A stretch of DNA of 29,176 nucleotides from Spirogloea muscicola (Eukaryota; Streptophyta; Zygnematophyceae; Spirogloeales; Spirogloeaceae): positions 306,185 to 335,360 of the forward strand of contig WELB01000053.1 of NCBI GenBank assembly GCA_009602725.1, given 5' to 3'. Position 1 is the stretch's first letter, and the number at the start of each line of letters is the position of its first letter. This document shows, piece by piece, positions 2 to 29,176 of the stretch. Both the position numbers and the translations under genes were made by a program. A model generated the notes under the pieces. The model saw only the letters and a list, made by a program, of their open reading frames with translations, was not told the DNA's origin and did no database searches.

Positions 2-2282
2 GCCGCCGCCGGCGGCGGCGGCGGTCGGGCCGGCTCGTCCTTCGTCACCTGCGAGGGCTGCGGCAAGGCCGTCTTCGGCCTCACCTTCGGCTTCCACGAC
101 TGCACGGGGCTCGCCGCCGCCATCGCAGCCTCCCAGCGGGACCTCCTCCGTGGCCGCGTGCCGCCGCCGCCGCCGCCACCCTCGCAGGGTGGCGGCGAGG
201 GCCTCGACCTCGGCGACAGCGGCGGCAGCGGGTGGCTCGAGGCGCCGCTGCTGGAGCCGCAGCCTGGCAGCACCCCTGCCGCGGCCGCCGCTGCCGCCAC
301 AGATGCCAGGACCTCGACTGCGACGAGCTTGCCGCAGGTGTGGTTCTGTTATCATTAATCTAGAACCATCTGCTAGAGGCTGTAAGTAACCGAACAGACC
401 TACGACGTTAGGCCCCTTTCTTCGTCGCTTAGAGGCCATTACCTTGCGCTCAGCTAATACCAAGAAAGCAACATGTAACGATAATGGTATGATGATTACC
501 AAGCTGGCGCCTTTCGGCCTTTTGGACCTTGTTCATTTCTGTCTGGGCTGGCCTCACAGCCCCCGCTCCCGGCTTGGGAAGAGCTCACGCCTTCTTGCCG
601 CAGGGCTCGCAGATGTCAGCCGAGCCCCTGTCGTCTCCAATGGTGGCGAAGGCTGAGGAGAAAGCCGAGCAGGAGGAGAGACCTGGCCTGGAGGCCCTCT
701 CTGTGGAGCGCGACACGCTTGCCATGGAGCTGGCGGCGGCGCGGAGCGACGTGCAGTCTCTGCAGGCCACCGTGGATGAGCACGCCAGCTGTGAGGGCCT
801 CAGGGCCTCGGCGGCAGCTCGGGAGGCGGCCCTCCTGCAACGCGAAGCGCAGCGGGAGGATGAGCTCCGACAGCTCCGGCGTGAAGTTCAGGACCTGGCA
901 GTGAGGTCCAGGTGAGCTTCAAGAAGCCCTGCCAGGTAGTGTGCTGCTTGTATAGGCAGGTTCTGCCATTGCGGCCTGGGGGCTCCTCAAGTCTCACTGT
1001 CAGGGCCATGGCTGTCGGCGGCCTGCAAGTGGCTGCAGCTCATTGTCAGAATGTCAATGCAAGCCTGGGCTGCAGCTGCCAATAGGCCCTGCTGTTCAGG
1101 TGTTATCAGCTGGCAGCATTGCCAGCACTGGGCCAGTGATAACAAGAAACATTTACCTTCTGATGCTTGTAGCGTATTTCAGGCGACGTCTTGAAGCCCT
1201 TGCACCTCATCATTGCTCCATTGCGATCCGCCCCTTCTTGAGGCACTCTGACATTACTGACGGCTTTGGATCATCAAGTCTAACCCTTTCGAATCAGACT
1301 CCACTTTAGGCTTTCCTACACCAGATGGAGCAGCCAACCTGAACCTGAACCTGAACCTGAAACCAACCTGAACATTTTGTTACAATGCAGCCACCTGGAG
1401 CTGGAGCTGTGCGAGTCGCGTGAGCGAGAAGGCGTGGCAGCGGCAGAGGCGCAGTCCATGTGGGAGGAGCTCCTGCTGCTGCGCGCTCAGCGGCGCTCTG
1501 GCCTCGCCGAGAAGTCGGAGGACATAGCGCGCAAAGAGCTGGAGCTGCAGCGCGTGCGCAAGGACCTGGAGGCGTGCCGCGAGGAGTTCCGGCGGGAGAT
1601 TGAGGCAATCCGCATCGCGGCCTCGTCTGCAGAGGATGATGCGAGTGGTGGCGTCGAGCCGTCAGGTGGCGTCCTTGTCCTGGGGAGGAGCACGCCTGCT
1701 GTTGGCCGGGCCGCCAGGACTCGGAGCGCCTCTTGCTCGCCAGCCAAGCTGCCAGACCTGGCACAGAGCGCACGGCTTTGGGCGCTTGGCACCAACCCGA
1801 CGCGGGAGTGTGGTGACATGGCCACCACAGCCACAACAATGCGAGAGCCCGTGTCGATGGGCGACGAGATGTGCGCCAAGGCCCTGACAGGCCTCAAGGC
1901 TGGCGCAGACCCCAAGCTGGCGGCAACAGTGGGCGGACGGGCCGGCGGCGACCGCAATGTGGCCTGGCTAAGCGGGAGCCTCAGCACCGGCAACAACTCG
2001 GAGGACTCGGATGACGACGACCTTGTGCGTGTGCGGTGGCAGAGGACTCGGGCAAGGGCTGCGGTGCGTGCCGACGAGATCGAAGATGACGCTGCAGCCA
2101 CTGAAGAGAGGGATAGTGGCGGCAGCCAGCAGGCAACGACGCCGTGGGGGCCCTTCCCGCTGCACAGGCGGCTGCGGAAGCGGCTCCAGTTCTTCTCGCT
2201 GGCTACCAATGAGGAGCTTCCAGATAGTCCCACGGTACTCACGGCCACTGGCGTGACCACGCGGAGCAGGTCCAAAACCTGA
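2..2282 (+). CDS. Coiled-coil protein with N-terminal CxxC-x11-HxC motif (5' end missing)
   Basis: Three exons, 2-337, 604-911 and 1391-2282, join with matching phases (0 then 2) and give about 511 residues; the start lies left of the window. Residues 17-34 read C-x2-C-x11-H-x-C ([19 protein letters not shown]), a plausible zinc-binding site; from memory the spacing resembles an N-terminal motif in some plant HMG-box-related proteins. A Pro/Ala/Gly-rich linker follows. Residues of about 130-295 are rich in Glu, Arg, Leu and Ala with heptad-like spacing, so a long coiled coil. The C-terminal third is disordered, with an acidic run (NSEDSDDDD) and a basic end (TTRSRSKT). An alternative donor at 2269 (phase 2) could splice to an acceptor before 2487, replacing the last residues with a basic/Ala-rich tail ending at 2721. 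The function is unknown. Exon structure is fairly secure; the motif's role is inference. Confidence 0.6.
511..597 (+). repeat. R1 interspersed repeat, copy 1 (inside gene 1 intron 1)
   Basis: Shares the core GGACCTTGTTCATTTCTGTC followed by GGGCTG-6 nt-CAGCCC and a pyrimidine-rich end. It ends six bases before exon 2 of gene 1, so its tail supplies most of the acceptor's pyrimidine tract. Confidence 0.7.
1338..1361 (+). repeat. CCTGAA hexamer microsatellite (4 units)
   Basis: Four perfect CCTGAA units lie 30 bases upstream of the exon 3 acceptor of gene 1; a fifth partial unit follows at 1367-1372. It is inside intron 2 and needs no function. Confidence 0.85.
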
Positions 2283-2789
2283 GAGCTGCTGCTTTTGGCT
2301 CTCCATGATCCCCTGGGCAAATGGTGCACGCCGCTCACGGCACCGTGGGACTGCCACCTGCTGTCAGTGGCTTCTGCCAATGCAGCTGCTTGGAGTATCG
2401 GCAAACAGCTCGCCCGAGGGCTCTCGCTGGTCGAAGAGGCAGCCCATACCGTCGACAGAGCATGGCTAGCCTTTTCCTGTGCCTAGAAAGGGGCCGAGGC
2501 CTGCCACCAAGGGGCGCAGTGCGAGCTCTGGCTCTGCCACGGGGCCTCAATCGGCTCCGAGAGCGTGCATGTTGGTGGCCGCTGCTCTGCCAAGCCTGTC
2601 ATGCGAGGCGGGGGGACCAGCGGCGACGGCAGCGACGGCGGCGACGGCGGCGGCCCTGGTGGGCTACACAGTACCATACCTGGTGGCAGCTGCGCAGAGC
2701 CCTCCACGCGTCACAATGTGATTAGTCAGCAGGGAGGTCAAGAGGTCCTCCCTCAAATCAAAAGAGGACGAGAAACCTCTAGAAATTGG

Positions 2790-2848
2790 AGGTGATGGCT
2801 GTGAAAGGCCAGTCCAAAAGATTGGACAAGGTTCAGAGGGGCCTGAAG
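2790..2848 (-). repeat. R1 interspersed repeat, copy 2
   Basis: Minus-strand copy lying against the 3' remains of the copia reverse transcriptase. It keeps the GGCCCCTCTGAACCTTGTCC start and the GGCCTTTCACAGCC half of the hairpin; the distal half is lost. Confidence 0.65.
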
Positions 2849-3097
2849 TGCAAACTCCTCACGAAGCAAAGCAAGTGACCACCATGGATGGCCACTGAGC
2901 TGAGATTTGGACCTAGTCAAATCATATAGGTGCCTGCCGAGGAAGATCAGGTCATTGACATGTAATGCACTTATGATGAAACTGTCTTCACGTCTAAGAA
3001 CGAAAAGATATCCACGTTTCCATCTGCAGTTCTTTTGATAAACGACAGAGCTGAAGGAAAAGACAAAGGTGCCCCCTGTAGTGCCGTGAAGGCACAA
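2849..3097 (-). pseudogene. pol: copia reverse transcriptase fragment
   Basis: The minus-strand frame contains LRREDSFIISALHVNDLIFLG. This fits the copia catalytic region, in which a 'Y.V..... l.lYVDD.l..g' pattern is expected, but the active-site YVDD equivalent reads HVND (2951-2962), losing the first catalytic-motif residue and one aspartate. About 35 residues upstream and 20 downstream are still loosely alignable; the rest of the polymerase and RNase H are absent. It is truncated by R1 copy 2. Confidence 0.55.
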
Positions 3098-3597
3098 GTA
3101 GATTCAAGTGGTGCTGCCATTGAACTTGTAGTAGGCTCGGCAGCTGAAGGTCTTTGTAGGGACTGGATGTGCTGATGTTTGGACTTCAGCAAATACTTTT
3201 TCACTTTCCAATGGTGTTGCATCATTGGAAATAACCAAGCCTGTAAAAGACAAACACTCATCACAAGAAGGAAGTTGAGGATCAGAAGTCCAAACTCCTT
3301 CTGATGATGGCTGCTGCACGATAACCAAGCATTGCAGAAAAAAACGTTCCTTGCTGAATGCCAGCAGCCACTGCCTTTTTCTGCATGCAAACAATGTTTT
3401 TAGCGTTGGCAGCTTCCTGCCTCAAACAGCATTAACATAAGTCTGAGGTCGAGAAAGAGAGGAAGGATCCCCCTGCCATGCCATGAAAGCATGTTCTTGT
3501 GGAAGTGAGGAAGATGTGGAAGAAGCAGCAGGTGCAAGGACTTCAAGAGGAACAGCAGCTGCATGTACAGCATGTACTGCTCCTTGAACTTGCAGTC

Positions 3598-4262
3598 TCA
3601 CTCCCTCTTGCTCCATGCTGTTGAAATTGGTCTCCCTCCAATGATGTTGGGAGTAGCAGAGCTTGTGAAAACAGAGCCATGAATACTTGAACGTTTCCGA
3701 TTTGCGGGGTTAGTGCATGCCCTCTCTGCCGGAGCACGAGGATGACGAGATGATGACTGCTCAACAATTGAGCATTGCAACCGATACATGTTCCCATATT
3801 GCATTCCTGCAGCCACTACAACCCCTGTTACGTTGCTGATGAGTTGACAAGCATTCGCAGAGAAGTTCACCTGCTTACCTTGAGAAGTTGCCTTACAGAC
3901 AGAAAATAGATTCGTCTTCAGGGAGGTAACATACAGGACATTCTGCAGGATGCAGGGAGTACTTTTGTTTCCTACTTGACAACGAATTCTTACTGACCCT
4001 AGGCCAACAGCATGACCTGCACTTCCATTAGCATAAGTTACAGAAAGAGGTGAAATACGTTCGAAGCTGGCGAACCAGTTCTTCTGGCAGCAGACATGCT
4101 GAGTTGCTCCAGTATCTATCAACTAGACATCATCGTCCTCTAGCTTAGTAGTGTTAGTTCCAGAGACAGCCATGAAGGCTTCCTCTGCGACTACAGACAA
4201 TGTCGAGGATGGTTTTGGATGAGGGTTTAGTTCTGGATACTTCTTCCAGCCTGCCGACATAG
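3598..4262 (-). pseudogene. pol: copia protease / pre-integrase region pseudogene
   Basis: After an in-frame TAG at 4123-4125 (a tryptophan is usual here), the frame reads LIDTGATQHVC, the catalytic D-T/S-G-A motif of copia aspartic protease. Then come VTYANGSAGHAVGLGSV and ILQNVLYVTSLKTNLFSV, the standard 'vLyvP.l..NLlSv' landmark, and a Gag-pre-integrase-like stretch up to QYGNMYRLQ. The frame upstream of the stop (AFMAVSGTNTTKLEDDD) joins smoothly to the protease, confirming a point nonsense change. Downstream sequence becomes Ser/Ala-rich without integrase zinc or catalytic signatures. The region is nonfunctional. Confidence 0.75.
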
Positions 4263-4501
4263 TCGGGCGGGTAGCTTGGGGCATTCTAGCGTCCCGCAAG
4301 CCATCGTTGCATGCTATAGAATGCGGCTATCATTGAGTCTACAGCGCTCCCAGGCACTCGCGATACACCAGCGTGCTGGTCGTGCATTAGCCCTGGCTAA
4401 TGGCTTCCGTGGTGGTGGTTTGGCGCCTCAGTATAGCATGTCAGATATGCATGTGCTCACTCGGGGATATTAGTTTCACCCTTAGCCAGCTCATTACCCA
4501 G
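4263..4501 (+). mobile_element. LINE 3' tail inserted in copia between gag and protease
   Basis: The plus-strand frame ends in LQRSQALAIHQRAGRALA...MSDMHVLTRGY-stop. This parallels the tail of the LINE at 6185-6690 on the other strand (LQRAQAHALHQKAGRALA...VSDLYVLTRGY-stop). The nucleotide match is imperfect, so it is an older or different subfamily. Copia gag sequence is on its right and copia protease sequence on its left, so it inserted into the copia copy. Confidence 0.6.
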
Positions 4502-5394
4502 TTAACAGGACATTTGTAAGGCTAGAATTGGCCTCCCTTTCAATTTCATGCGCACCGCGCGCCTTCTCTTCCAGCATGTTTTCTCGGTGTGTCTAGATCT
4601 CTGACAAAAGGAGCAGATGGGAGACCCTTTCAAACTGGTAGTGCTGAGAAGTGCCAAACCATCATTGGAGCTACTACCATACACCTTCTCCTTCCGCTTG
4701 GTCTCTTCCAATAGAAGCCTGGATATGACTTGAGACAGCAACGGAGCTGGTTCTCTCCCGTCAAGAGAGGTCACTACCAGCTCGTGGGATGCAGGCAAGC
4801 TAGAAAGTAGATATGAGGCCATATGCTTTTCTGAAACCGGACTATCTAAGATAGCAAGTTGGTTTCCTAGACTCTTCATTGCATCCACATGGGTTAGTAA
4901 TGAGGCTCCCTCTGTCATTCGTAGAGCGAGTCTCCTGAACAAAAACATCTCATTTGCAGGCAATTTCGGCTGGTAGAGCTCTACGAGCCTGTCCCAACAG
5001 GCCTTTGCAGAGTCTAAGAGCTCAATATGATGCAGTTGATCGTTTTCTGTGAATTGAGAATAATTACGGCCCTAGCCTGATAGTCCATTCTATGCCAGAA
5101 GCCAAACTCTGACGATGTATGATCAGGCTGGTCAAGACTCCCATCAAAAAGACCCCACAAACCAATGGCTTGCAGCACAGTTGTCACCTTCAGACTCCAC
5201 AAGGAAAATTTATCTCCCCCAAACTTGAAACCGACTGCTCTTGGAGGGAGTGCCGCGCTCCTTCCTCGCCTTCTTGCCCATGGCGGTGACGGCGGCAGGG
5301 TCCGGCGGGAGCAGGCCGGCAGCTGACTCAAGGCAGGTGGCGTGGGCGCTGGCCAGCGAGGAGGAGCAGTGGGCCGAACAGACTTCATGCTCAC
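4502..5394 (-). pseudogene. gag: copia gag (capsid/nucleocapsid) pseudogene
   Basis: The first part contains GFKFGGDKFSLWSLKV and FGFWHRMDYQARAVI, matching the start of copia Gag, where the 'F.G.nf..W' and 'W...D..A...I' positions are typical. The frame then shifts near 5060 and continues as SAKACWDRLVELYQPKL and EMFLFRRLALRMTEG, the usual middle of copia Gag. At 4574-4615 a zinc knuckle, CSFCQRSRHTEKTC (C-x2-C-x4-H-x4-C), identifies the nucleocapsid. The reading stops at 4502, exactly where the inserted LINE tail begins. A proline-rich N-terminal stretch of about 50 residues upstream may be leader rather than protein. The element cannot make an intact product. Confidence 0.75.
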
Positions 5395-5569
5395 TGGGCC
5401 CCCTTTTGTGTGAATTGGAAGAATGCCAATTTCACGGCACAGTGGGTCCCGGCAGGTCGACCCGCCGTTAACCTAGTTAAGCCGTTAAGCTAGTCGGGCA
5501 GGGGCCGACTGCAGAGCCGGCTCGCAGGTGCCCGTTAAGCTACTGAGCCCGCAGGTGCGAGGCACATTT

Positions 5570-5581
5570 TCACACGTGTGA
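5570..5581. repeat. Perfect palindrome TCACACGTGTGA
   Basis: A 12-bp perfect palindrome centred on CACGTG (G-box core), with a second CACGTG at 5589-5594. It may be a bZIP/bHLH-type site or part of the palindromic mobile DNA around it. No gene start lies nearby, so the second is more likely. Confidence 0.5.
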
Positions 5582-5662
5582 TCTGCCCACGTGTCACCCC
5601 GATGGTCCGGGCAGGCCGCCCCCTGGAAGCGACAAGCGCTTCACAAGCGCTTTTTTTTAAAA

Positions 5663-5772
5663 TGCATTAATGCATATATTCTATTTTATGCAGAAAGCAT
5701 AGTCGTGCAGAAATCAATGTAGTAATGCTTAAGTGTCCACTTAGCGCATAAAATCAATATGCATTAATGCAT
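5663..5772. repeat. AT-rich imperfect inverted repeat (MITE-like)
   Basis: The left arm (5663-5691) and right arm (5746-5772) are reverse complements except for a few bases in the middle. Each ends in the 12-bp palindrome TGCATTAATGCA. About 54 bases separate them. The composition contrasts sharply with the GC-rich flanks, as expected for a small inserted element. Confidence 0.65.
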
Positions 5773-5785
5773 AAACTCCAATAGT

Positions 5786-5829
5786 GGACGGAACTGGGCC
5801 CTCCTCAGGAGGAGGGCCCAGTTCCGTCC
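5786..5829. repeat. Perfect 21-bp hairpin with 2-base loop
   Basis: Bases 5786-5806 and 5809-5829 are exact reverse complements separated by AG. The arm begins GGACGGAACTGGGCCC. Such a structure would extrude easily and is not followed by a T-run, so it is not a simple terminator. Confidence 0.9.
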
Positions 5830-5834
5830 GCGCT

Positions 5835-5957
5835 CGTGGCAAATGGCGCCGTTGCTTCTTCAGCGGGGGGATTGAGGCGTCCTAGTCAGCAACAAACGTG
5901 GCAAACGGCGCCGTTCCTCCTCATCGCGGGCAAACGGCATCCTAGTCAGCGCCCAAT
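5835..5957 (+). repeat. Two tandem ~61-bp imperfect repeats
   Basis: Units 5835-5896 and 5897-5957 share CGTGGCAAAyGGCGCCGTT at their start and TCCTAGTCAGC near their end. A third start (GTGGCGCTTCC) follows. The block abuts the perfect hairpin. Confidence 0.7.
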
Positions 5958-6047
5958 GTGGCGCTTCCGTGGCGGGCCTCCGCGTCCGGGCGCGCAAAGG
6001 GTTGTATAGCCGAGGGTCTCCAAAGACCGCGCGACACGTACCCCTCC

Positions 6048-6137
6048 GTCCGTCCGTCCGTCCCGGTGTACATTGGCCCTAAGGGCACGGTTACACCCGC
6101 CCTAAGGGCCGGGTTGCACCGGGAAGGACAGACGGAC
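6048..6137. repeat. Nested inverted repeats with two CCCTAAGGG cores
   Basis: The outer arms 6048-6066 (a CCGT run) and 6119-6137 pair at 16 of 19 positions. Inside, GGTGTA...TACACC brackets one GGCCCTAAGGGC, and ACCCG...CGGGT brackets a second CCCTAAGGG. This cruciform-rich layout is typical of nonautonomous DNA-transposon ends. Confidence 0.65.
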
Positions 6138-6184
6138 GCCTGGCGTCCACCCTGTCAGGGTCAATGAAGGAGTTGTGTATTAAG

Positions 6185-6690
6185 AGATGGAGGGCCTGTG
6201 TGGCCAAGTACAATGGCAAGCATTTTGACTAATGTACATCACCTGCTGCTAAGCTGACCCGCTCAGTAACCACGAGTCAGCACATAGAGGTCGCTAACTG
6301 ACGCCCGAATACCGGACGGCAATTGACAAGCTCTTGAGCTACCAGCTAAGGCTCGACCAGCTTTCTGATGCAACGCATGAGCCTGAGCTCGCTGCAGACA
6401 AGGTGACACTCCACATCGCAAGAATGACAAGTAGGCTGCCGGCATGCCCATCTGAGCTGGAAGCATACCCTCACGTCGAGCATATCCCAGACTTGCAATA
6501 GGTTTAAGTAAGGTATGGAAGCGAGGACCCATGCAGCCGAAAGTGTCAATTGCGGCTGTTAGGAGGTGATCACTGCGGGGGTAGTCAGAGTAGTGTTGGA
6601 GCTTTCTCTGCTCTGCACCTCCCACTGCGTGTGGCCAGCGATGTGAGTTGATGCGGAACTCCTGTACGCCTCCGTCACAACCACATCAAT
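6185..6690 (-). mobile_element. 5'-truncated non-LTR retrotransposon (LINE), C-terminal ORF and 3' UTR
   Basis: The minus frame ending at the TGA at 6263-6265 reads WPHAVGGAEQRKLQHYSDYP, then TAAIDTFGCMGPRFHTLL, SFLRCGVSPCLQRAQAHALH and VSDLYVLTRGY. From memory the 'E..K...Y', 'A.dtfG.mGp.f..lL' and 'flr..vs..LQRaqA' positions match the extreme C-terminus of LINE reverse transcriptases common in algae and oomycetes. A 78-base 3' UTR (6185-6262) follows. Its sequence recurs at 28651-28815 and 12120-12210 and ends near GGCCCTCCATC on the minus strand. No reverse transcriptase domain is present, as expected from 5' truncation on insertion. Confidence 0.65.
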
Positions 6691-6825
6691 TAAGGCTCGT
6701 AGGCCTCCGCCAGGTTGTACCCCCACAATGTTCAGGGTGCGACAGTGGTGGTGTCTGTCGTGCTATGTCCTATCGACTGCCTTTGTGTCGATCTGACTAG
6801 GACAGCTGACTTGGCTTACTACGTG

Positions 6826-6980
6826 GCCTCCTAGGTTGACTCATCCACTTTTGTGTGTGATTCACACTAAGGATGGATGACCACTTCTCTCTCTCCCTCT
6901 TATGGCCTCCTGGGCTGGGTTATACACTTTTTTGCGTGGTGCACGCTAAGGATGGAGGACCACTGCTTTCCCTCTCTCTC
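6826..6980 (+). repeat. Two tandem ~78-bp imperfect repeats
   Basis: Both units run from GGCCTCCT through CACTTTT, CACrCTAAGGATGGA and GACCACT to a CT-rich end; they start at 6826 and 6904. The second unit flows into a long TCTCTC/CTTTCC tract. Confidence 0.7.
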
Positions 6981-7010
6981 TTCCTTCCTCTCTTTCCTTT
7001 CCTATCTCTC

Positions 7011-7115
7011 TCGACGACAACAACAACATCGACCGCTCCTCCAAAGTGGACGACAACAACACCCTCGACCGCTCATCAAATGCGGACGACAACAACGACG
7101 ACCGCTCATCAAACG
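7011..7115 (+). repeat. Three ~36-bp repeats (GGACGACAACAAC ... GACCGCTC)
   Basis: Units start near 7011, 7047 and 7083, each with GACGACAACAAC and GACCGCTCmTCAAA. One plus frame gives a Thr-rich repeat (WTTTTPSTAHQ, RTTTTTTAHQ), but no wider coding signal supports a protein. Confidence 0.7.
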
Positions 7116-8819
7116 CGGACTTCTACGTGGACTACAGCGACCACAAGGGCCAAAACCCACGCGCGACGCCGACCGTCAGCAGACCGTTCGAAGCGCAACG
7201 AGGGATGCCCATCTGAAGGGACCTCAACCACCCACAAGACCGTGAAGGTGGGCGCTGCAGAAGCGGTGGCGAGGCGATCGTGGAACGGACGGCTGAATTT
7301 GACCATCTTACGGTCGAGTCGGCCACTGCGACGGGTGACGGCCCACGACAGCCGGCCCATCCAGCTTAGCCTACCAGCGTAGCCAACGGCCGAACCTGGC
7401 CTATCAGGCAGCGCTAAGATCTTCGCCGCGCCCGGCCCAAGCCGGGGCGAGCGACCCTTGCAGTCTGCTTTGCAAGTCTTACCCATTTGCCGCGAGCCAC
7501 GCCTGCGCCACCGCCGCGCCATAGAAGCGTAGAGCCTAGGGCAGGACCCGCAGCAGCTAGTAAACCTTCGCACGGACCTGCGGCGCGACTGCGAGAAGGC
7601 GTGGTGATTCTGTGGTGAGCAGCCTCGAGTATTGCGCTGCGTATCGCAATCTTCACTAGGCTGAGCACTAATTCTCAAATCGCATCAGTTACGGCTGTGC
7701 ATTGAGGCCTAGTAGCACCATCATCGATTGGCATTCACTGACCTTGCACAAGTGATCATCTTGTGGACAAAGGGACTGCATATTCACTTGTGTATGCTTT
7801 TTCACATAGCTCGCATTTCAAGATACACTTGTATGCTTGCATCGCACCATCTGACCGGTTCACAGTGGCCACGAGTCACTTGGTTCTGGATACGGAAACA
7901 ACTGCTCAGTAGACAGTCCATGGTCCTTTATACTAAAGCTAAAGTTCTAATTCGGACTGTTCTTACCTTTCTTCTTATGTTGTGAGACTTTCAATGATTC
8001 TCAATGTTGGCCTCTCGTCGGACTGTTTTCTTTCAGCCTGGCCAACGGGATCGACAATTCCATTCGGCTTGTTACATGTGTAGTCTAGCACGTCAGTATT
8101 TGTCGTTATCTAGACTAATCGATGCCATTGCATTGCGCAATCGACGCCTTCTTGCATGACACGTCACTGAGAATCCGTGGTGATGGGCATTATATTGCTC
8201 ACTTCCACGACGGCGCGGTAGCCGGCGTCGCGCGTGGCGTCAGGGGGATGGATGCGGCCATGGAGGCCGTGTTGTCCTTAAGCGAGACATTGCTAAGGGG
8301 AGGCCTTCAATGACTGGAGCTAGCTAGCCAGCTTCAGGCGGCGACAGCAGCCGCGGACTAGTTTCCCATCCCCCTCCCTTCCAGATTAGATAGGGGTGGT
8401 GAGTGGTTCTGCGAAGGCGGTAACCACCTGCAGCACCTGCTTGGTGGGCGGCAGCTAGCCGCGTACACCGCCTCAAGCAGCTCTGTCAGATACTTGGGGC
8501 GGCGCCCTCCCGGGCTCTCCGACGCCAATATAACCAAGGGCACCAGCCGAGTCCCCTTTTGCGTAGCGAGCGGGCTCTCACTTCCTGCATACTGGCCCAA
8601 GCCCTGCCTCTCTGCCCTCTCAACGCTCCATCTCCCCTCACCTCTCAGTGGGCTCTGCCCAGCCGCTGGCACGCCGTTCGGCCTTCAACAATCTTCCGCT
8701 GCTAACGGTAGCCCGCCATGGCTGCCGATGACCAATCTGTCCTTCAGTATCTGTCTCAAGGCCGCCGAGACGGACAAGAAGGGCCATGCCGCCGACGACG
8801 ATGAAATGCAGTAAGAAAC
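7116..8819. other. No gene supported
   Basis: Open frames here (for example minus 7109-7678) are arginine-rich with no recognisable domain. Two GC-rich islands, 8200-8300 and 8460-8815, stand out from AT-richer flanks. The second contains a good start context, GCCCGCCATGGCTGCC at 8711-8726, opening a 28-codon frame, but I cannot connect it to a splice chain. Confidence 0.4.
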
Positions 8820-8928
8820 AGCTCTTCCAAACACGGCAATGGCTGTGAGAAGAAGTGGCTCTCCCAATGGGGGCAAGGGCTGTGGAAAAAGTCAGCCCGA
8901 AAAGAAACGACAAAGGTTTGAAGGGACC
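8820..8928 (-). repeat. R1 interspersed repeat, copy 3 (nearly full length)
   Basis: It carries the whole consensus on the minus strand: a TTCAAACC(T)TTGTC start, GGGCTG...CAGCCC hairpin, GCCCCCATTGGG and an AAGAGCTGTTTCTT-like end. The hairpin loop is longer than in other copies, yet both stem arms are intact. Confidence 0.75.
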
Positions 8929-8930
8929 AA

Positions 8931-8964
8931 AAGGCCAGCCCAAAGGAATGTACGAGCCTTGAAG
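8931..8964 (-). repeat. R1 partial copy 3b
   Basis: The first third of R1 only (TACATTCCTTTGGGCTGGCC), directly abutting copy 3 in the same orientation. Confidence 0.55.
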
Positions 8965-9710
8965 AGCTGGGTGGCGCCAAATGCAAGATATTCGTCTCCA
9001 AGACGTCAGCAAGTGGGCGTTCAACAACCTCTAGTCAGCAAGTGCAAGTGAGAATAACTAGAGGGTGGAAAAGCGTCGCCCTGACGGAACCTGGAGACAC
9101 AGGAGGCGACCGGTACCTGCATCTTCGATCCCCTGGATAGGACCTCACGATGGGAGTTGCAGCTCGTTTCAGGGCTTTCAGGGAACAGTATGTCCATCAG
9201 TACACGAACAATGCCCAAGGCGACATGACATTGCCACCATTCCCACTGCGAAGGGGTCTCTTTCAAGAAAGGAGGGAAAGTGCGGGCTTGCAACGGTTCG
9301 CGTGGACGATTCCTTACCAGATGTTGCACAACTGGATCTCGTCAGCTTGTGAGCTATCAATGCCATCTTCTGACCTTCCTAGCAAGGCAACCAAGCACTG
9401 CCAAGGTGAAAATAAGAGAATGCCCTCGCTGGTGCTGGATCTGGTCCTTGAAGTGCACAAAAGCTTGCGTACCATCGATGTTGGATACATGCTGATCATG
9501 CACCACCCTCCTCTGTAACAGGACTCATTAGGAACTCGATCGTACAAGACGTGAGAAGGAGACAGCCGCTGCTGCCATCTGGTACGGTGTGTTGAGCCAC
9601 GCTTGCAAAAATTCATGGGGGTATCATCGGTGTTGCTATCTAGCGAAGAGACTTGATGGAATATGCAGCGAGCATCACACTGATCGGAGCAGAACACATC
9701 AGGCAGTGGA
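8965..9710. other. No gene supported
   Basis: A minus frame ends in LHLLTRGC-stop at 9021, echoing the LTRGY-stop end of the LINE tails, but its upstream part shows no match. The remainder has no recognisable domain or repeat. Confidence 0.35.
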
Positions 9711-9802
9711 GAAAGAAGAAGAAAGGACGCTTCCAGGAGAGGGCGGTGGCTGTGAGAGGCCAGCCCAGGAAAAAGACTGAACAAAGTTTGAAGGGGCTAA
9801 AG
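9711..9802 (-). repeat. R1 interspersed repeat, copy 4
   Basis: Minus-strand copy with AGCCCCTTCAAACTTTGTTC, then GGCTG-8 nt-CAGCC and a CTTTCTTCTTC end. It lies about 240 bases downstream of the kinase stop. Confidence 0.75.
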
Positions 9803-9946
9803 AATGCGGTAAGTGGAGAAAGGATGGGGGCTACAGTGATAGAAGAGCAGAAGTTGCTCACTATTTATAATGAATGCTTTTCAATGAGGTGGTGCCAGAA
9901 TTGTGGCAGAGAGGAGTCTGGGAACAATGCCTACTACAGTACAAGT

Positions 9947-9951
9947 TTACA
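9947..9951 (-). terminator. Possible TGTAA polyadenylation signal for the kinase
   Basis: TGTAA on the minus strand, 87 bases past the kinase stop at 10039. TGTAA is the usual signal in chlorophyte algae. A 5-mer is weak evidence by itself. Confidence 0.3.
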
Positions 9952-10038
9952 TCTCAGGGGGCGGCAGTGCCACTCGCTTCTAGGGGACTACAAAGCATCT
10001 TCTATAAATTTGCGGCATGAGGTGGGTGATCAACACTG

Positions 10039-11616
10039 TCATGGCACGCGGGTCAACACTAGGGTTGTGGAGGACTTGCTAGCACTGAATCCGAAGTCTT
10101 GCGCTGAGCTTGTCTGGAGGCTCAGCTTGTAACTGCTGCCAGTTTGCGAGTGGCAGGCAGCAGCGAAGGGGTTGTCTTCTTGCATCAAACACTCTGCAGC
10201 ACCTCCGACTTCTTCCAGCAGCCTCTTCTGGAGAGCCGCCGTTGCCGCGCGAAGACGCTCACGAAAGCGGGAGAGGATGTTGGGCTCGCAGGTGGCGACG
10301 TTCGCTGTCTCGTCCGCCGACTCGACCATCGAAGAGCCTGCCTGGGCAGCCTTGGCCTCCTCGACATCCGGTCCGCTGCTCGACGCCATGCGCGGCAGCT
10401 GGAAGGTGGAGCGCAGGGAGGCGGCGCAGGAGAGATGCAGCAACTGCTGCCGCAGCCACGTACTGTGGTACACCTCCTTAGCGGTGAAGCGCATGGCAGG
10501 GTCCGAGCGCAGCATCCCTTTGAGGAGGCTCTTGGCGTCGGCGCTGACCGAGGTCCAGGGCTCGCACTCGAAGTCGGGCTCGTTGCTGCAGATTGCGTCG
10601 TAGATGGCAGTGTCGGACTCGCCCCAGAAGGGCGGCACGCCGGAGAGCAGGACGTAAAGGATGACGCCCAGCGACCAAACGTCAGCCTCCACGCCGTGCG
10701 TGCCGAGGATGACCTCGGGCGCGACGTAGTACGGGGAGCCGACGAACTCGGCAAGGCGCTCGGCGCCGTCGAGGACCACCGCCAGCCCGAAGTCGGCGAT
10801 CTTGGCAACGTAGCGGCCGCGTGCCCCGGGCCGCTCGGCGAGCAGGATGTTCTCCGGCTTGAGGTCGCGGTGCACGATGCCGCAGGCGTGGAGCGCAACA
10901 ACGGTGGCGGCGACGTCGGCGAAGACGGCGGCGGCCTCCGGCTCGGAGAGCCGCCCGCGGGCCTCGATGTGGCGGAACAGTTCGCCGCCGGCGCAGAGCT
11001 CCATGACCAGGTGCACGCCGTCGGGGTCCTCGTACACGCCCTGCAGCGCGACGACGCCGCCGGGCGCCGCGCCGCCGGCCCGCCGCAGGATCGCCACCTC
11101 CCGCAGCACTGCCTGGCGCTCGCGCGGCGTCCCCAGCTCGCCCTTGTCCAGAGTCTTGCAGGCGTAGCGGCGGCCGTTGAGGTGGGAGGTGGCCTCGCGC
11201 ACGATGCCGAACTTGCCGCGGCCCAGCTCGTCGCCCAGCGTGAAGTGCTGGGCGAGGAGCGGCGTGCCGGCGGGCAGGACCAGGTCGGCGGCGGCGGCGT
11301 CGGACCAGCTCTCGCGCCGCGGCCGCTTCTTGAACGGCAGCTTCCACGGCGGCAGCAGCGACGACGGCGGCGGCGGGGGCGGCGACGGCGGCGACAGCTG
11401 CGGCACTCGCGCAATTAATCAGTGTCCAGTTAAACGAGGGGTATGTCTTCGTGAATCTACTAGAACACCAAGGATATCGAATTCTACTCTACGTAAAATT
11501 GCTAAAGTACGATAAAGTAATCGTATGCAAGTCATCGCTGACATTCCCGGAGAAGGTCACAACTTACAAGAACACTCTGTTGTGGGCGCGGCGGCGGCGG
11601 CGGCGGCGGAGCGGGG
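10039..11616 (-). CDS. PEPRK/PPCK-like Ser/Thr protein kinase (first exon cut by gap)
   Basis: The main exon (10039-11397) encodes a complete protein kinase domain: glycine loop GRGKFG, catalytic lysine in YACK, alpha-C glutamate in [18 protein letters not shown], and the APE equivalent in YYVAPE. The order and wording resemble, from memory, the plant PEP-carboxylase-kinase-related branch of the CDPK/SnRK superfamily. There are no EF hands or autoinhibitory helix; about 130 C-terminal residues are Ala/Ser-rich with no known domain. No ATG precedes the domain: a GTG at 11404-11406 is preceded by an in-frame TGA four codons upstream. An acceptor (GCCGCAG) at 11398 and a strong donor (GTAAGT on the minus strand, 11562-11567) imply an upstream exon ending at 11568, which runs GC-rich into the gap at 11617. 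Residues before the domain are proline-rich. The kinase call is secure; the subfamily is probable. Confidence 0.85.
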
Positions 11617-11981
11617 NNNNNNNNNNNNNNNNNNNNNNNNNNNNNNNNNNNNNNNNNNNNNNNNNNNNNNNNNNNNNNNNNNNNNNNNNNNNNNNNNNNN
11701 NNNNNNNNNNNNNNNNNNNNNNNNNNNNNNNNNNNNNNNNNNNNNNNNNNNNNNNNNNNNNNNNNNNNNNNNNNNNNNNNNNNNNNNNNNNNNNNNNNNN
11801 NNNNNNNNNNNNNNNNNNNNNNNNNNNNNNNNNNNNNNNNNNNNNNNNNNNNNNNNNNNNNNNNNNNNNNNNNNNNNNNNNNNNNNNNNNNNNNNNNNNN
11901 NNNNNNNNNNNNNNNNNNNNNNNNNNNNNNNNNNNNNNNNNNNNNNNNNNNNNNNNNNNNNNNNNNNNNNNNNNNNNNNNN
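11617..11981. other. Assembly gap (365 N)
   Basis: The gap is flanked by a GCG-repeat on the left and a run of nine C on the right, a difficult-to-sequence GC-rich stretch. It probably hides the start codon and promoter of the kinase gene. Confidence 0.99.
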
Positions 11982-12020
11982 CCCCCCCCTCCCTCCTGCC
12001 TAGCCCTGTGGCTAATGGAT

Positions 12021-12092
12021 GGAAACAGCTCTTATAGTTTACGGCAAAGGCTGTCTGTGAGAGGCCCAGCCCAAAAGAATGTACAAGGTTGA
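12021..12092 (-). repeat. R1 interspersed repeat, copy 5
   Basis: Minus-strand copy with ACCTTGTACATTCTTTTGGG, then GGCCTCTCACAG and an AAGAGCTGTTTCC end. It begins 40 bases after the assembly gap. Confidence 0.7.
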
Positions 12093-12119
12093 TTAATTGT
12101 CATGTATTTGAAACAAACG

Positions 12120-12210
12120 AGGGCCAAAATGACCAAGTACAAAGGCAAGCACATCTAATGCCGTACGTCACCCACAGCAGCAGGTCTTAAAGGTGTTCAT
12201 GACCCGCTAA
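12120..12210 (-). mobile_element. LINE 3'-UTR fragment
   Basis: Shares GACCAAGTACAAAGGCAAGC and the following GTACGTCA..CAGCAG..GACCCGCT positions with the tails at 6185 and 28651, in the same orientation. No ORF part remains. Confidence 0.5.
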
Positions 12211-12234
12211 TGGGGGATAGTTAGCGCTTCCCCT

Positions 12235-12317
12235 GGCCCCCTTCTCCTACTTTGTTCCTCATTTTTTGGGCTGGTTTTTTTTAGCCCCTATCCTCAATTG
12301 GCGAGCCCTTTCTTCTA
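12235..12317 (+). repeat. R1 interspersed repeat, copy 6
   Basis: First of four plus-strand copies in a row. It has a GGGCT...AGCCC stem around a T-run loop and keeps GGCGAGCCCTTTCTTCT at its end. Confidence 0.65.
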
Positions 12318-12464
12318 GTTTTCGCACTCGTAACTACTGAGTGGTCCATCCTCCCACGTTCTGACTCTGATCTGCTGTTGCTCACACGTGGATACTGAGC
12401 AGCCATCTGCATCTCCCTCTGCACCATCTTGCACTTTGTAGTGTAGTCCTTTTTCAGCACCTCT

Positions 12465-12545
12465 TTCTTTGGCTTTGAACATTGTCCATTCTTTTTGGGT
12501 TGGCTTTGCCAGCCCCTCTTCTCAATGGGCGAGCACCTTCTTCTG
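12465..12545 (+). repeat. R1 interspersed repeat, copy 7
   Basis: It has TTGTCCATTCTTTTTGGG. Its stem reads GGTTGG/CCAGCC, still able to pair through one G-T wobble, and it ends GGGCGAGCACCTTCTTC. Confidence 0.7.
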
Positions 12546-12621
12546 ACATAGCATCTTCAGGCCCCTTCGTAAACAGTCGTGAACAACCTCTTCATGCACC
12601 TCGCCGGCTTATTAAATAGGA

Positions 12622-12639
12622 ATATATATATTATATATA
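12622..12639 (+). repeat. AT dinucleotide microsatellite
   Basis: ATATATATATTATATATA between R1 copies 7 and 8. Confidence 0.8.
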
Positions 12640-12702
12640 GCAGCTCTTTGAAGTGAATGTCCTACATGGTCCTTGCTTATTGATGTCTTTCTCAGCGCTT
12701 TC

Positions 12703-12785
12703 CGGCCCCTCTTGACATTGTCAACTCTCCTCGGTCTGGCTGCTCACAGCCCTCGCCCCCTTTTGGGCGAGCCACTTTCTCCTTT
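12703..12785 (+). repeat. R1 interspersed repeat, copy 8 (best two-hairpin example)
   Basis: It contains GGCTG-CTCA-CAGCC directly followed by CTCGCCC-6 nt-GGGCGAG, two perfect stems in tandem. It starts GGCCCCTCTTGACATTGTC. Confidence 0.75.
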
Positions 12786-12827
12786 TCTTTTGATGTCAGC
12801 AGCCGCGTTCTTCTTTCTTATTAGTTT

Positions 12828-12910
12828 GGCCCCTTCGAACCTTGTCAAAGTTTTTTGGGCTGGCTTCTCACAGCACTTGGCCCCATTGGCAGAGCCGCTT
12901 CTTTCTTATT
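12828..12910 (+). repeat. R1 interspersed repeat, copy 9
   Basis: It starts GGCCCCTTCGAACCTTGTC (the reverse strand reads GGTTCGAAGGGG, like a polymerase III B box). Then come GGGCTGGCTTCTCACAGC and GAGCCGCTTCTTTC. Confidence 0.75.
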
Positions 12911-13070
12911 CTCTTTCCCCCGAGCGCCCGGGCCAAGCCCCTGTCTTGCCACAGGGCGTCGACTGCCATATAACGTCGACAAGTCAAATCAGTACCGAAG
13001 TAGGCGACAAATAAGCCTGTACGTGGTGGCCACGCAAAAAAGAAAAGCAAGCGCGGCCAGATTAACTGGT

Positions 13071-13118
13071 GCCTGGGAGAGGCCAGCCCAAACGAATGGA
13101 CAAGGTCTGAAGAGGAGG
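13071..13118 (-). repeat. R1 interspersed repeat, copy 10 (partial)
   Basis: Minus-strand fragment with GACCTTGTCCATTCGTTTGG then GCTGGCCTCTCCCAGG; the distal half is missing. Confidence 0.6.
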
Positions 13119-13919
13119 TGGAAAGCAGGTTTGCGAGGAGTTCAGGAACTACACTGACATTGAATGAAAAACAGCCGGGGAGAAAATTACAGAATATGAG
13201 TAACCAAGAGATAGCGTGATTAGCAATCTAGGACTTAGGATGGATGAATATTCTCTCTAGTAAAACAGGTCGAGGGACACGGCACAAGCAAAGTATGTGA
13301 ACAAGAGACTGACATGAGCCAAATAGTACCTTCAGAGAGGGTTTCCCATGCGAACGGTAACAGAATGGGGTACCCTCAGAGAGAGTTTCAAGAGAAATAG
13401 TAACGGATCGTAATGGAAATGTACCTGCGGATCAATGATAGGGGACAGTGACAGCGTTTTGGGCACTAACCTTGATAACCGATCCTAGCTGGAAATGTCC
13501 AGAGGACAAACTCCCACGAAACTCAGTGACAAGGACAAGATGCAAATAGAGCAATCTCAGGATGCAGATAGATGCAGTCGCACAATGAGAGTCGCTTGCG
13601 CATACCAGTTGAGACTTTCCTAACATCCAAGGTTGGGCTTGGATGCAATTTCGTACAAAGTCGCGGTATTGCTGCTTCCCAAGTGCGCGCCGGTCTGACG
13701 CGGCCGATGCGGGGCTCCTCGGGGTTAGGCTCTCTGCGGAGGTTGCGGCTCGTGCCTGTGTCCACGCCTTTTTTGGTGTGGCCCTGGACGCGCGCGTGCT
13801 ACGCTTGCTGGGCAACAGCAGCGGCGGCGGCGGCAGCGGCAGCGGCGGCGGCCAAGGTTGGCAACAGCCAAAGGGAGAGATTCGGTTCGCGGCAGAATGA
13901 CTTGGGGTAGAAGACTATC
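13119..13919. other. No gene supported; GC-rich island at 13640-13870
   Basis: An imperfect ~43-bp tandem duplication (GGTACCyTCAGAGAGrGTTTC) lies at about 13326-13415. The island 13640-13870 is open in several frames on both strands, with a GGC/AGC repeat at 13818-13853, but no frame shows a recognisable domain. It could be an exon of an unrecognised gene. Confidence 0.35.
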
Positions 13920-14837
13920 TCATTGATCGAAAGTGTTGTGGTTCACGAGGTTGGGGTATTGATGCCGGAGGAGGTCGATATGGTGGGCTGCCGCCTCGCG
14001 TGCCTGAGGGTCGATATCAAGGTAGATATAGCGAGCCACCTTAATGTGGCTTTGCATCGCGGCGTGTAGTCCATCTGCAGTACCCCCAAATATTTCCACC
14101 AGTAGTATGCCAGCAGGGGTTAAGGTCCAGTTAATCACACCATTGAAGAAATCCCCATATCTTCTACGACTTCGGTGCCCGCGATTGGGAAGCACATCCG
14201 AGCAGCCTTTATGCGCTCAAACTGCTTCTCCACCTCCAAACCGTGCAGATGTGGTCATGCCCAAATTAGGCGTTGGCATGTAAATCCTGATTGGCTGCTC
14301 AGGTGCTGACTGGCTTGACGAGGTGGATGCCAACTTCCGCTTGGTTGTCAAGCTCAGCACCAAAGGAGGAGGTAACGGAGGAGGCACAACTGGCGAACGG
14401 ACAGGAGGACGTACAGTAGGAGGATTGTCTGGCGTGGTGCCGTCCTCCCTTCTTGGAATATCTCCCTGCAATATCGATTTGCCTGTCTGCATTGGGAGAA
14501 ACAATTTCATCAGTAGCGGTTTCACTGTCTTGTGAAATGAGCTATTGTCGACCTGACCAGTATGTACTGGGATGTCAGTACACCTCCAGTCTTTAAGCAA
14601 AGGTAGCCTTACTTTAGTCGTCAGCCGCAAGTCGAAATGACAAGCAGCAGCAGCAATATATAGTCCAGCCGAAAGCCTGAGGAGGCAGCCAGGGCACGGA
14701 AAGAACACAGTTGCAAGGCCAGTGCCTGGCCTCGCTGCTGTGCAATACACAGGGCACTGATTTTGGATGCTTCCCTTGCTGCTGCTGCCATGAGACACTG
14801 CCCGTCCGCTGCTGATAGACAAGCCTCCGAGCCCCAA
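13920..14837 (-). pseudogene. Retroelement-like frame with cytosine-methyltransferase motif I/II fragment
   Basis: One minus frame runs from 14837 to 13920 with a single in-frame TGA at 14217-14219. The upstream part (206 residues) is featureless except for a Pro-rich linker. After the stop comes WTLTPAGILLVEIFGGTADG, resembling motif I (aDLFxGxGG, SAM-binding) of C5 cytosine methyltransferases. YIYLDIDPQAREAAAHH follows, resembling motif II (the acidic ribose-binding position, here LDIDP). The frame ends before motif IV (the PCQ catalytic cysteine), so it cannot methylate. From memory, similar 'FGGI.tGL...RYvYvD.d..Ar..A.hh...L...YP' segments occur in retrotransposon polyproteins of algae and other eukaryotes. 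No reverse transcriptase or integrase lies beside it here. Confidence 0.5.
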
Positions 14838-14869
14838 ACTCTTCCAGCAGAGGGCGATGGCTCAAGTGG

Positions 14870-14957
14870 CCGCTGGATGTGCTTGTCCGCTTCTGTTGGG
14901 CTGGCCTGTCACAGCCATCGCTAATCGCCACCTTGTCTTTCTGGAAGAAGAGCTCCG
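14870..14957 (+). repeat. R1 interspersed repeat, copy 11
   Basis: It has CTTGTCCGCTTCTGTTGGG, then GGCTG-8 nt-CAGCC and a GGAAGAAGAGCTC end. It lies about 75 bases upstream of the telo-box pair of RPN2. Confidence 0.7.
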
Positions 14958-18100: not shown

Positions 18101-21100
18101 CGGTCGTTGATGGCGCCCTACCTCCCGCAGAACGGCGCTAGCGGCAGCCCATACTCGGAAGGTGGGGCGCTGTATGCGCTGGGCCTCATCCACGCCAACC
18201 ACGGGGAGGGCATCAAGCAGTTCCTTCTGGAGAGCCTGCGGAACACGAGCAACGAGGTGCGCTCAGGAGAAGGATCACGCTGTCGTTGACAAGGGAGAAA
18301 GGATGTTGCTGATTTAAGATGGCACTGTGATCCAGCAATCAAAGCAGAAGTCTCGACTTGTCCATTGGCTTGCAAGTCAAAGAGTTACCTCAGCAGTACT
18401 TCAGGGATTCGTCGTTGTGTGGCAATCTCAGAATATGTCCAATGTGTTGTTGGGGATAGTGGTCTTACATCAGGTCAACAAATGGCATTGCACCCGTTAC
18501 TTAGTGTGCTGAGGTCTCACTCAGTCTCCCGAATCCTCATCTGACTGCAGGTCACACAGCACGGCGCCTGCCTGGGTCTTGGTCTCGCAGCAATGGGTAC
18601 AGCAGACGATGAGGTATACGAGGACGTCAAGCAAGTCCTGTACACGGACAGTGCGGTGGCTGGCGAGGCGGCGGGCATCGCCATGGGGCTCCTCATGGTT
18701 GGCACCGCAAGCGAACGTGCTGGAGAGATGCTGGCCTATGCCCACGACACGACGCACGAGAAGATCATCAGGTACATCGCCCTGGGTGTTGTTGGTGTTG
18801 TCTTGGCCATCATAAATTGCATATCTGCTGGAGACATCTGCCACTGCAGCTGAGGTATCACCTTAGTAAACTTCCCCTTGCATTATACAAAGGCAAGTTT
18901 TGTACGCATTTCGTATGCAGTAGACGCAAGCCCGTATCCCACATTGTAAATGAGCTGTGCGAAAGCTAAGAATTGCATACATGTGATTATTTGCATGAAT
19001 ATGCCTCAATCTTACTGCTCTCTAAGTGGCAAACATGTGGGCAGGGGACTGGCTCTGGGAATTGCTCTTGTGGTATACGGTAGGGAGGAGGAAGCGGACA
19101 CTCTGATTGAGCAGATGACACGGGACCAAGATCCGATTTTGCGATATGGCGGCATGTACGCCCTGGGTATGGCCTACCGAGGTACGGCCAATAATAGCGC
19201 CATTCGTCGGCTGTTGCACTTTGCCGTCTCGGACGTCAGTGATGATGTGCGGAGGGCCGCCGTCCTTTCGCTTGGCTTCGTCCTCTGTGCCCAGCCTGAG
19301 CAGGTACACTTGCAACTTGTGTACAAAGTCAGACGCTGACAAGTATTGCGTGCCGTATAAGGTCCAGGCACTGTGATACACTTTGCAACTCGTGTACAAT
19401 GTCAGACGCTGACAAGTATTGCGTGCCGTATAAGGTCCATGCACTGTAAAATGGCACTGCGTTGTCTCAGTCAGCTCTGTGCTTCTGTGAAACTGTTCTG
19501 AGATCAAGGTGTTGACGAGGCTCTCAAGCATCACCCTCTACTGATAGTGTCTTGCTTTTATATCCCTGTTCCACAGACACCTCGGATTGTATCACTGCTC
19601 TCTGAGTCGTACAACCCGCATGTGAGGTACGGTGCGGCCATGGCCGTTGGCATCTCCTGCGCGGGAACTGCCTTGCCAGAAGCTGTGGACCTCCTGGAGC
19701 CTCTCACCTTGGACACGACAGACTTTGTTCGACAGGGAGCCCTCATTGCCATGGCCATCATCTTGCAGCAAAGCACAGAGGCCCGCGAGCCTCGTGTTGG
19801 ACATTTCAGGTATGTTGGAAAACGCCTTCAGTGTAGCAAGCAAGCAAAGCAGTCACTTGCAATGCTCCAGCTTACATACAACATCCTCTATGTGCTTGCA
19901 GGCGTCAGCTGGAGAAGATTATTCAAGACAAGCATGAAGACACAATGAGCAAAATGGGCGCAATCCTGGCCACGGGAATCTTGGATGCCGGCGGACGAAA
20001 TGTTGTAGTCAGCCTCCGGTCGCGGACGGGCCATGACCGAATAACTGCCATTGTGGGCATGGCCGTGTTTACTCAGTTCTGGTACTGGTACCCACTCATA
20101 TACTTCATCAGCCTTGCTTTTGCCCCAACAGCTTTCATCGGCTTGAACGCGGACATGGAGGTATAATGCACATTCAACTCTATGTTTGCATCTAGAAGAA
20201 ATCTACTTGCAGAGTGCCAGTTGTTGTCAGACCCTTACATTGTCAAATATTGGATTTCATACTTAAGCAGGCCAAATTGGGAGCAACTTTTCAGGTCAGC
20301 TTTATAAGCTGGCGAATGCTGACAATGATTCGTATCTGCCAGCTTCCCAAATTTGAGTTCCTGTCGGACGTGAGGCCATCGATTTTCGGATACCCTCCAC
20401 CTGCAGCAACCCCTACATCGACGGCAGCAACCAAGATGCCAGCAGCGATTCTCTCCACGGCTGCCCGCCACAAGGCCAAGGCCAAGAAGGACGCTGAGGC
20501 CAAGGCAGCGGCCAAGAAGGAGGAGCGGGAGAGGTGGCGGGCCGCAGCCATCGCTCGGCAGAAGGCCGCTGCAGATGCTGCCAGAGCCGCCTATGCTGCT
20601 AAGCACAACATGGAGGCCAAGGACGTGACAAACGAACACCTCCTTAGCGCTGGCGCTGATAGTGCCAAGGACGCGAAGAGCGATGACATGGAGGTAGAGG
20701 GTCCTCTCACTTATCACCCAAGGCTTGAAGGCTCCTGGCAAGTAGCACCTCAACAGATAGGTGGCAGCTTCTGACACTTACATCTAGCATCAAAATAGAG
20801 GCTCATGCTCATGACAGGCCAGCCATGCTCCTCGTGGACTCTACCGCTGACCTGAAGATTGTGGCTTGAGTATTGTCGATCAGTGAGGGCAAGTGAGGTC
20901 ATAGAAGTATCTTACTGTTTGGAATCTGGGAGTACGATGTTAGAAGTCTCACATAAAGACATCACTGATTGGTTGAGCTACACACATGAGGTTTGGACTT
21001 CACGTGCAAATTGACACTCAGGTGCCGGATTGGCAGGTCGAGGCAACGGCAACGGTGCCGGCGCGGGAGGGCCCGCCGGCGCGGGAGGGCCCCCCACCTA

Positions 21101-27472: not shown

Positions 27473-29176
<1,704 letters not shown>

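Follow-up and report, generated by a model that had tools for sequence, protein, structure and literature searches.

The stretch of DNA analysed here (the window) comprises 29,176 nucleotides of Spirogloea muscicola (Streptophyta, Zygnematophyceae; GenBank assembly GCA_009602725.1, contig WELB01000053.1, positions 306,185 to 335,360), part of contig C53 of a 153-Mb genome in 471 contigs, and carries multiple copies of a short interspersed repeat that we call R1. A preliminary description, made from the letters of the window alone, had presented R1 as an ~80-bp unit with a conserved hairpin and had considered a short interspersed nuclear element (SINE) or a miniature inverted-repeat transposable element (MITE). 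We found instead that R1 is almost certainly the 3′-terminal part of the 3′ untranslated region (UTR) of a lineage of long interspersed nuclear elements (LINEs, or non-long-terminal-repeat retrotransposons) presumably moved by target-primed reverse transcription, because a LINE open reading frame (ORF) lies upstream, copies are 5′-truncated and some are flanked by target-site duplications. R1 is a real repeat, ordinary in kind and not a new type of element; its interest lies in a likely R2-like endonuclease, in insertion without site specificity, and in the tandem junctions between copies.

R1 copies in the window and across the genome

A single 70-base seed taken from copies outside the window yielded 9 window matches at E ≤ 1 (best 4e-13). 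The R1 profile, which has 68 positions and was built from matches in fetched loci together with the window copies themselves, returned 13 window matches at E ≤ 0.1 on both strands. These included all 12 previously listed copies, with the copy listed at 8820 resolved into two separate matches, while no match at E ≤ 0.1 was obtained when the window and ten 5-kb stretches were each Markov-resampled ten times. The dispersed family of at least 12 copies on both strands that had been described is thus upheld, the weakest window matches being 8930–8964 (E 0.018) and 12249–12306 (E 0.0007). R1 copies and LINE remnants in the window are as follows (position, strand, feature).

339–593, +, candidate 255-bp LINE 3′-end insertion holding an R1 copy at 513–596 (profile E 3e-10)
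328–338 and 594–604, 11-bp direct repeats CTTGCCGCAGG around the 339–593 insertion
2765–2845, −, R1 copy at the 3′ end of a 5′-truncated LINE (E 1.8e-13); repeat coverage 0 beyond the 3′ end
8821–8852, −, partial R1 (3′-terminal part) abutting the next copy as a tandem 3′-end duplication (E 1.4e-4)
8846–8930, −, full R1 copy (E 2.9e-16 for 8858–8928)
8930–8964, −, partial R1 immediately preceding, in sense, the 8846–8930 copy (weak, E 0.018)
9716–9811, −, 96-bp LINE 3′-end insertion with R1 at 9715–9800 (E 1.3e-12)
9705–9715 and 9812–9822, 11-bp direct repeats, AGTGGAGAAAG on the + strand, around the 9716–9811 insertion
12043–12090, −, partial R1 copy (E 1.4e-6)
12249–12306, +, R1 copy of a diverged subfamily (E 7.2e-4)
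12466–12546, +, R1 copy of the GGGTTGG..CCAGCCC subfamily (E 3.7e-9)
12702–12784, +, R1 copy (E 2.7e-14), with the strongest predicted fold of 12 folded (z −3.24)
12823–12898, +, ~75-bp insertion consisting of R1 alone (E 2.8e-18)
12811–12822 and 12899–12910, direct repeats TTCTTTCTTATT around the 12823–12898 insertion
13071–13114, −, R1 copy, partial match (E 6.8e-9)
14882–14921, +, R1 copy, partial match (E 2.6e-6)
4315–4470, +, related LINE ORF C-terminus remnant ending ..LTRGY* (tblastn 61.5% identity over 52 aa to the ORF of locus L086, E 7e-11)
6266–6652, −, more distant LINE ORF C-terminus remnant (tblastn 38% identity over 129 aa, E 1.5e-16)

The junction type seen at 8821–8852 was also read in other loci. 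No R1 was found within 700 nt downstream of either LINE remnant, and the remnant at 6266–6652 belongs to the ..LYVLTRGY*AGQ group, most members of which have no R1 in the 3′ UTR interval. Near-identical pieces at 6250–6310 and 28717–28777 (61 bp, 95%) were also observed, the first of them overlapping the end of this remnant.

Across the 153-Mb genome, the exact core GGGCTGGCYNNTCACAGCC occurred 7,981 times (3,998 + 3,983), compared with 0 + 0 for the same pattern read backwards as a control; among the core matches listed, all places are on contig C1. The share of profile matches holding this core was 2 of 12 in the window, 1 of 6 in ten evenly spaced 5-kb stretches, 4 of 33 for a set of 13 other loci, and 111 of 429 when all the sequence collected was counted together. 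Since the core sits in a minority of profile matches, profile-level copies should be several times more numerous than 7,981, perhaps 30,000 to 60,000, which are rough figures. The evenly spaced stretches, with 6 matches (E ≤ 0.01) in 50 kb, scale to ~18,000, an equally rough figure, and all 6 matches fell within 2 of the 10 stretches. Copy length ranged from ~75 bp up to that of the LINE, such that the ~80-bp unit first described holds as the portion common to subfamilies and not as the full length of the element. A literature search covering open-licence papers found no paper on the R1 repeat.

R1 marks the 3′ end of a LINE RNA

Pairwise alignments of copies were sharp at one end and had many stopping points at the other, where the main peak of stops corresponds to the limit of the subfamily-common part. 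The sharp end is the TTTCTTCT-like end of the preliminary description and is (TTC)n-like in that orientation. Beyond the variable end, some copies run on for hundreds of bases, and this upstream continuation translates, in the same orientation, to a protein ending ..SDVRLLTRNY* or similar shortly before R1; it follows that the RNA has its 3′ end at the fixed end and that short copies are 5′-truncated. An initial SINE reading, which placed the 5′ end at the fixed end and treated the hairpin as resembling an anticodon arm, was dropped, as the variable end runs into the ORF.

R1 was present in sense orientation 60–170 nt past the stop codon at 70 of 105 ORF ends (those of 111 that have at least 350 nt downstream) and at 30 of the 32 with at least 80% identity, while antisense R1 occurred near 14 of the 105 and 0 of the 32. 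Because most loci had been fetched for holding R1, we recounted after dropping ORF ends near the fetching R1 at the locus centre, and found sense R1 at 33 of 54 ORF ends, including 11 of 12 at ≥80% identity (antisense 9 and 0, respectively). The distance from stop codon to R1 varied by subfamily (139, 125, 130, 87 and 153 nt, among others). Three loci, L085, L086 and L087, had been fetched for the ORF, and in them frames of 718, 833 and 1,338 aa, respectively, were each succeeded by R1 after a short 3′ UTR.

The protein search with the C-terminus gave at least 150 scored matches, with identity up to 99% among the matches listed, and 21,092 first-look candidates versus 1,453 for the reverse transcriptase (RT). 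ORF coverage in the loci rose from 1–2 matches at aa 100–199 to 133 at aa 750–799, a gradient exaggerated by the 1.5-kb flanks around R1. An excess of C-terminal over RT candidates, together with coverage that climbs toward the C-terminus, is typical of elements copied by target-primed reverse transcription. At the other end, repeat coverage beyond the 3′ end was 0–5 matches in 10 of the 13 window matches. An apparent truncation hot spot at 77–80 nt was rejected as consisting mostly of subfamily boundaries: of 37 copies with an apparent start at the R1 5′ boundary, 23 had sequence upstream of it in common with at least one other of the 37, and the boundary is thus partly a product of LINE subfamilies.

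Target-site duplications were assessed in 289 distinct copies by comparing the 3′ flank with the upstream stretch, with expectations derived from re-paired flanks. Direct repeats of at least 12 nt were found 60–130 nt upstream in 11 of 289 copies (2.7 expected), and those of at least 11 nt were found 60–300 nt upstream in 24 (10.3 expected). Eleven low-multiplicity candidates of 11–14 bp were identified, three of them in the window, and 10 of the 11 start with C or T; the boundary of the insertion is ambiguous because the element itself ends in TTCTT. In the mechanism we propose, the LINE protein would nick DNA, the nicked target would pair with the UUC-rich, CUUC 3′ end of the LINE RNA, and the nicked end would prime cDNA synthesis, which would mostly stop early and leave thousands of 5′-truncated copies retaining R1.

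Several observations weigh against R1 being the end of a LINE RNA, or against parts of that account. No R1 was found in the expected interval at 35 of the 105 ORF ends, 31 of which had below 70% identity, nor at either ORF end of locus L072; in loci not fetched by R1, sense R1 was found at 2 of 6 ORF ends, one of which had antisense R1 too. Three of the 13 window matches were covered past the edge (14, 20 and 41 matches), two of these being partial copies that stop short of the 3′ end. Direct repeats of at least 16 nt in wider ranges showed no excess (4 vs. 4.0 and 6 vs. 8.2), a clear duplication was not seen in most copies, and two of the eleven candidates (in L041 and L038) are R1-like words, which may be joints between copies. 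For the 339–593 insertion, the part upstream of R1 (~339–488) was unmatched in the fetched loci, leaving its 5′ limit uncertain.

The LINE protein and its putative endonuclease

The Pfam domain RVT_1 was detected in the LINE ORF (E 7e-18 in L086 and 8e-16 in L087), and the closest solved-structure chains were R2 retrotransposon proteins (E 6e-5 and 9.5e-7). Among the RT matches listed, 18 with open frames of 1,142–1,403 aa had an identical score of 374.7 bits and lay on contigs C14, C17, C20, C33, C55, C66 and others, pointing to recent amplification. In L087, examined for the N-terminal zinc fingers of single-ORF RLE LINEs, two zinc-finger-like stretches were read, for which Pfam C2H2 matches were below the cut-off (E 0.1–0.4).

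The C-terminus, read by eye in alignment A2, contains a Cys-His knuckle followed by H, R-x-x-D-[LVI]-V, D-[VI]-V and K-x-x-x-[YH]. According to PMC5678591, a KX2KY motif with a catalytic first K is a mark of the restriction-like endonuclease (RLE) of LINEs. The first K was invariant in all 18 aligned sequences, and L087 also has the motif, as KELKY. Judged from these motifs, the element probably carries an RLE. Counting against the assignment, strict KX2KY was found in 6 of the 18 sequences, the L086 type reading K..KH, and the P of the PD motif is absent, with R-x-x-D-[LVI]-V in its place. The knuckle spacing is CX1CX11-12HX3C, compared with CX2-3CX7-8HX4C in PMC5678591, and a profile of the C-terminal region found no RLE among solved structures; for these reasons the RLE label is provisional.

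A conserved hairpin-forming sequence without covariation

The GGCTG/CAGCC stem noted in the preliminary description was found across subfamilies despite its variable spacer, with 92.4–92.5% of cells forming a standard pair in 85 aligned copies. This alignment (A1) retained 85 of 115 non-redundant rows after 30 had been removed by hand (inserts, odd ends and unusual rows), a selection that was not blind to the hairpin. Among all helices of 5 and 7 pairs, GGCTG/CAGCC was the best paired, with an excess over independence of 0.002, that is, pairing at the level given by column composition alone. The CTCGCCC/GGGCGAG stem was far weaker (58% paired in the 85 copies), and an outer-stem model had 63% of cells paired. 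When 12 sequences were folded, one of which (L085:70–155) was the antisense strand, one had z below −3 and the rest ranged from −2.03 to 1.57.

Covariation gave no support to a selected fold. RNAalifold predicted 0 pairs on the 85 copies, and the two-stem covariation score was lower than in all 500 shuffles. Genome-wide, variants of the middle stem pair numbered 229 at C alone, 338 at G alone and 11 at both, the last compared with 9.7 expected under independence (229 × 338/7,981), and 4 of the 11 can pair. As dead copies decay base by base, this lack of covariation neither proves nor excludes that the fold has a function in RNA from live elements. Of the suggestion that R1 is selected on, or amplified through, a folded form, amplification through RNA is borne out, while the covariation argument fails.

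Both hairpin arms are nonetheless kept at >90% in the 85 diverse copies while other columns vary, and the 3′ stem-loops of the stringent-type LINEs UnaL2 and ZfL2 are needed for movement, according to PMC4176376. For these two reasons recognition is the likeliest role of the hairpin, and by analogy we lean towards GGGCUGG..CAGCC being what the LINE protein would recognise on its own RNA.

Tandem copies: template jumping or nested insertion

At many loci, the 3′-terminal R1 part is repeated or an R1 end is joined to another LINE segment. In L087 (175–235 and 4464–4524) and L090 (593–653), the R1 end of a truncated copy lies ahead of a long LINE copy, both belonging to one subfamily. Template jumping is known for the R2 enzyme, as reported in PMC12203849, and tandem R1 copies could in part reflect slippage at the CUUC end, or template jumping there. 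The fullest version of this account is tentative and, taken as a whole, rather unlikely: an R2-like RLE lineage would have lost its site specificity and come to rank among the commonest repeats of the genome (tens of thousands of copies), with a fixed hairpin sequence at its 3′ end, and its RT would hop between RNA ends, so that truncated and full copies line up head to tail with the CUUC end at each joint.

The competing explanation is that R1 clusters formed by nested insertion of LINEs into existing copies, the behaviour described for Zepp in PMC8226300, to which we give a substantial chance, if somewhat short of even. Consistent with nesting, R1 matches were clumped, as in the 2 of 10 evenly placed stretches that held all 6 matches at E ≤ 0.01, and L008 contains an insertion inside another R1, with a direct repeat. 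Nested insertion predicts equal orientations, whereas R1 neighbours within 160 nt were in the same direction in 105 cases and opposite in 58 across all loci. Loci L040–L068 came from a query that itself held a tandem; without these loci and without locus centres, a less biased set, the counts were 29 and 17, while within L040–L068 without centres they were almost equal (28 vs. 23), as nesting would have it. The joint at which an R1 end meets the long copy's 5′ part is the same in L087 and L090, which argues against nesting, although L088 and L089, the two other regions compared, are without it. If template jumping did contribute, its traces could be preserved naturally in the tandem junctions. 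A run of the TTTAGGG telomere-type repeat was also seen adjoining LINE copies in L043 (~1441–1475).

SINE and MITE alternatives

Short R1 copies of 75–100 bp with direct repeats occur, some copies start exactly at the R1 5′ boundary, and a B-box-like word, GGTTCGAAGGGG, can be read on the antisense strand, as would be expected of a SINE with its own RNA polymerase III promoter and a 3′ end in common with the LINE. That word, which had prompted the earlier SINE proposal, is antisense to the LINE RNA and lies within the LINE 3′ UTR, and the 23 of 37 boundary copies with shared upstream sequence speak against an independent 5′ end. No tRNA was detected in the window by ARAGORN (bacterial settings), an Rfam scan of the window at gathering thresholds gave 0 matches, and an Rfam search up to E 10 of the single stretch tested (window 12690–12920) gave no tRNA family, leaving a SINE very improbable. 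The other model first offered, a hairpin-bearing MITE (mobilised by a DNA transposase), would account for the conserved inverted GGCTG/CAGCC arms but can practically be dismissed: the arms are internal and one end is variable, MITE-type terminal inverted repeats are lacking, candidate duplications span 11–14 bp and not a single length, and longer copies run on into the RT ORF.

With R1 read as the 3′ end of a LINE, a seemingly unnamed repeat is resolved as LINE tails, whose 3′-terminal piece alone can pass for a SINE or MITE. The segments are parts of a longer transposon, an outcome that the preliminary description had itself listed as refuting its reading, though not of one to which we could put a name.

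Comparison with known LINEs

R2 and other RLE LINEs share with the element one long ORF, C-terminal H..xD..DVV..K motifs after a Cys-His knuckle and a 3′ UTR where cDNA starts, and R2 proteins are the best solved matches of its RT. The element differs from them in knuckle spacing and in having strict KX2KY in 6 of 18 sequences, a comparison made on motifs and matches. Unlike R2 proper, which occupies a fixed site in 28S ribosomal DNA, it is dispersed, with unlike flanks and duplications.

UnaL2 and ZfL2 carry an apurinic-type endonuclease. As in these LINEs, a sequence able to form a hairpin lies close to the 3′ end of the RNA, kept here among subfamilies; the element differs in that the predicted R1 hairpin is without covariation support for its pairing. 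Zepp and Zepp-like LINEs of green algae likewise have many 5′-truncated copies and arrays made mostly of 3′ ends, but Zepp groups with L1 elements (both according to PMC8226300), whereas the RT here best matches R2 proteins. Dualen LINEs, which PMC8226300 places in Chlamydomonas relatives, carry an RLE (PMC4640811) but also an apurinic-type endonuclease, and Pfam found none of the latter in the 1,338-aa L087 frame.

RLE clades are described in PMC4640811 as mostly target-specific, with HERO holding many non-specific members; in such non-specific insertion HERO, as described, would resemble the present element. If the RLE assignment is true, the photosynthetic S. muscicola would harbour an RLE LINE that is both abundant and dispersed, in contrast to the mostly target-specific clades of that account. 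In keeping with a green-lineage genome, two light-harvesting fragments gave matches to many chlorophyll a/b-binding chains, some of the best being from moss or land plants.

Other features of the window

A protein kinase reading frame lies at 10042–11418 on the − strand (Pfam Pkinase, E 1.4e-64), and a Copia-type gag remnant at 4505–5071, also on the − strand (Retrotran_gag_2, E 5e-23). On the + strand, a frame at 20196–20771 matches the C-terminal domain of the 26S proteasome subunit RPN2 (E 1.6e-14). A 73-bp tandem duplication occupies 19310–19447, with 95% identity over 65 bp.

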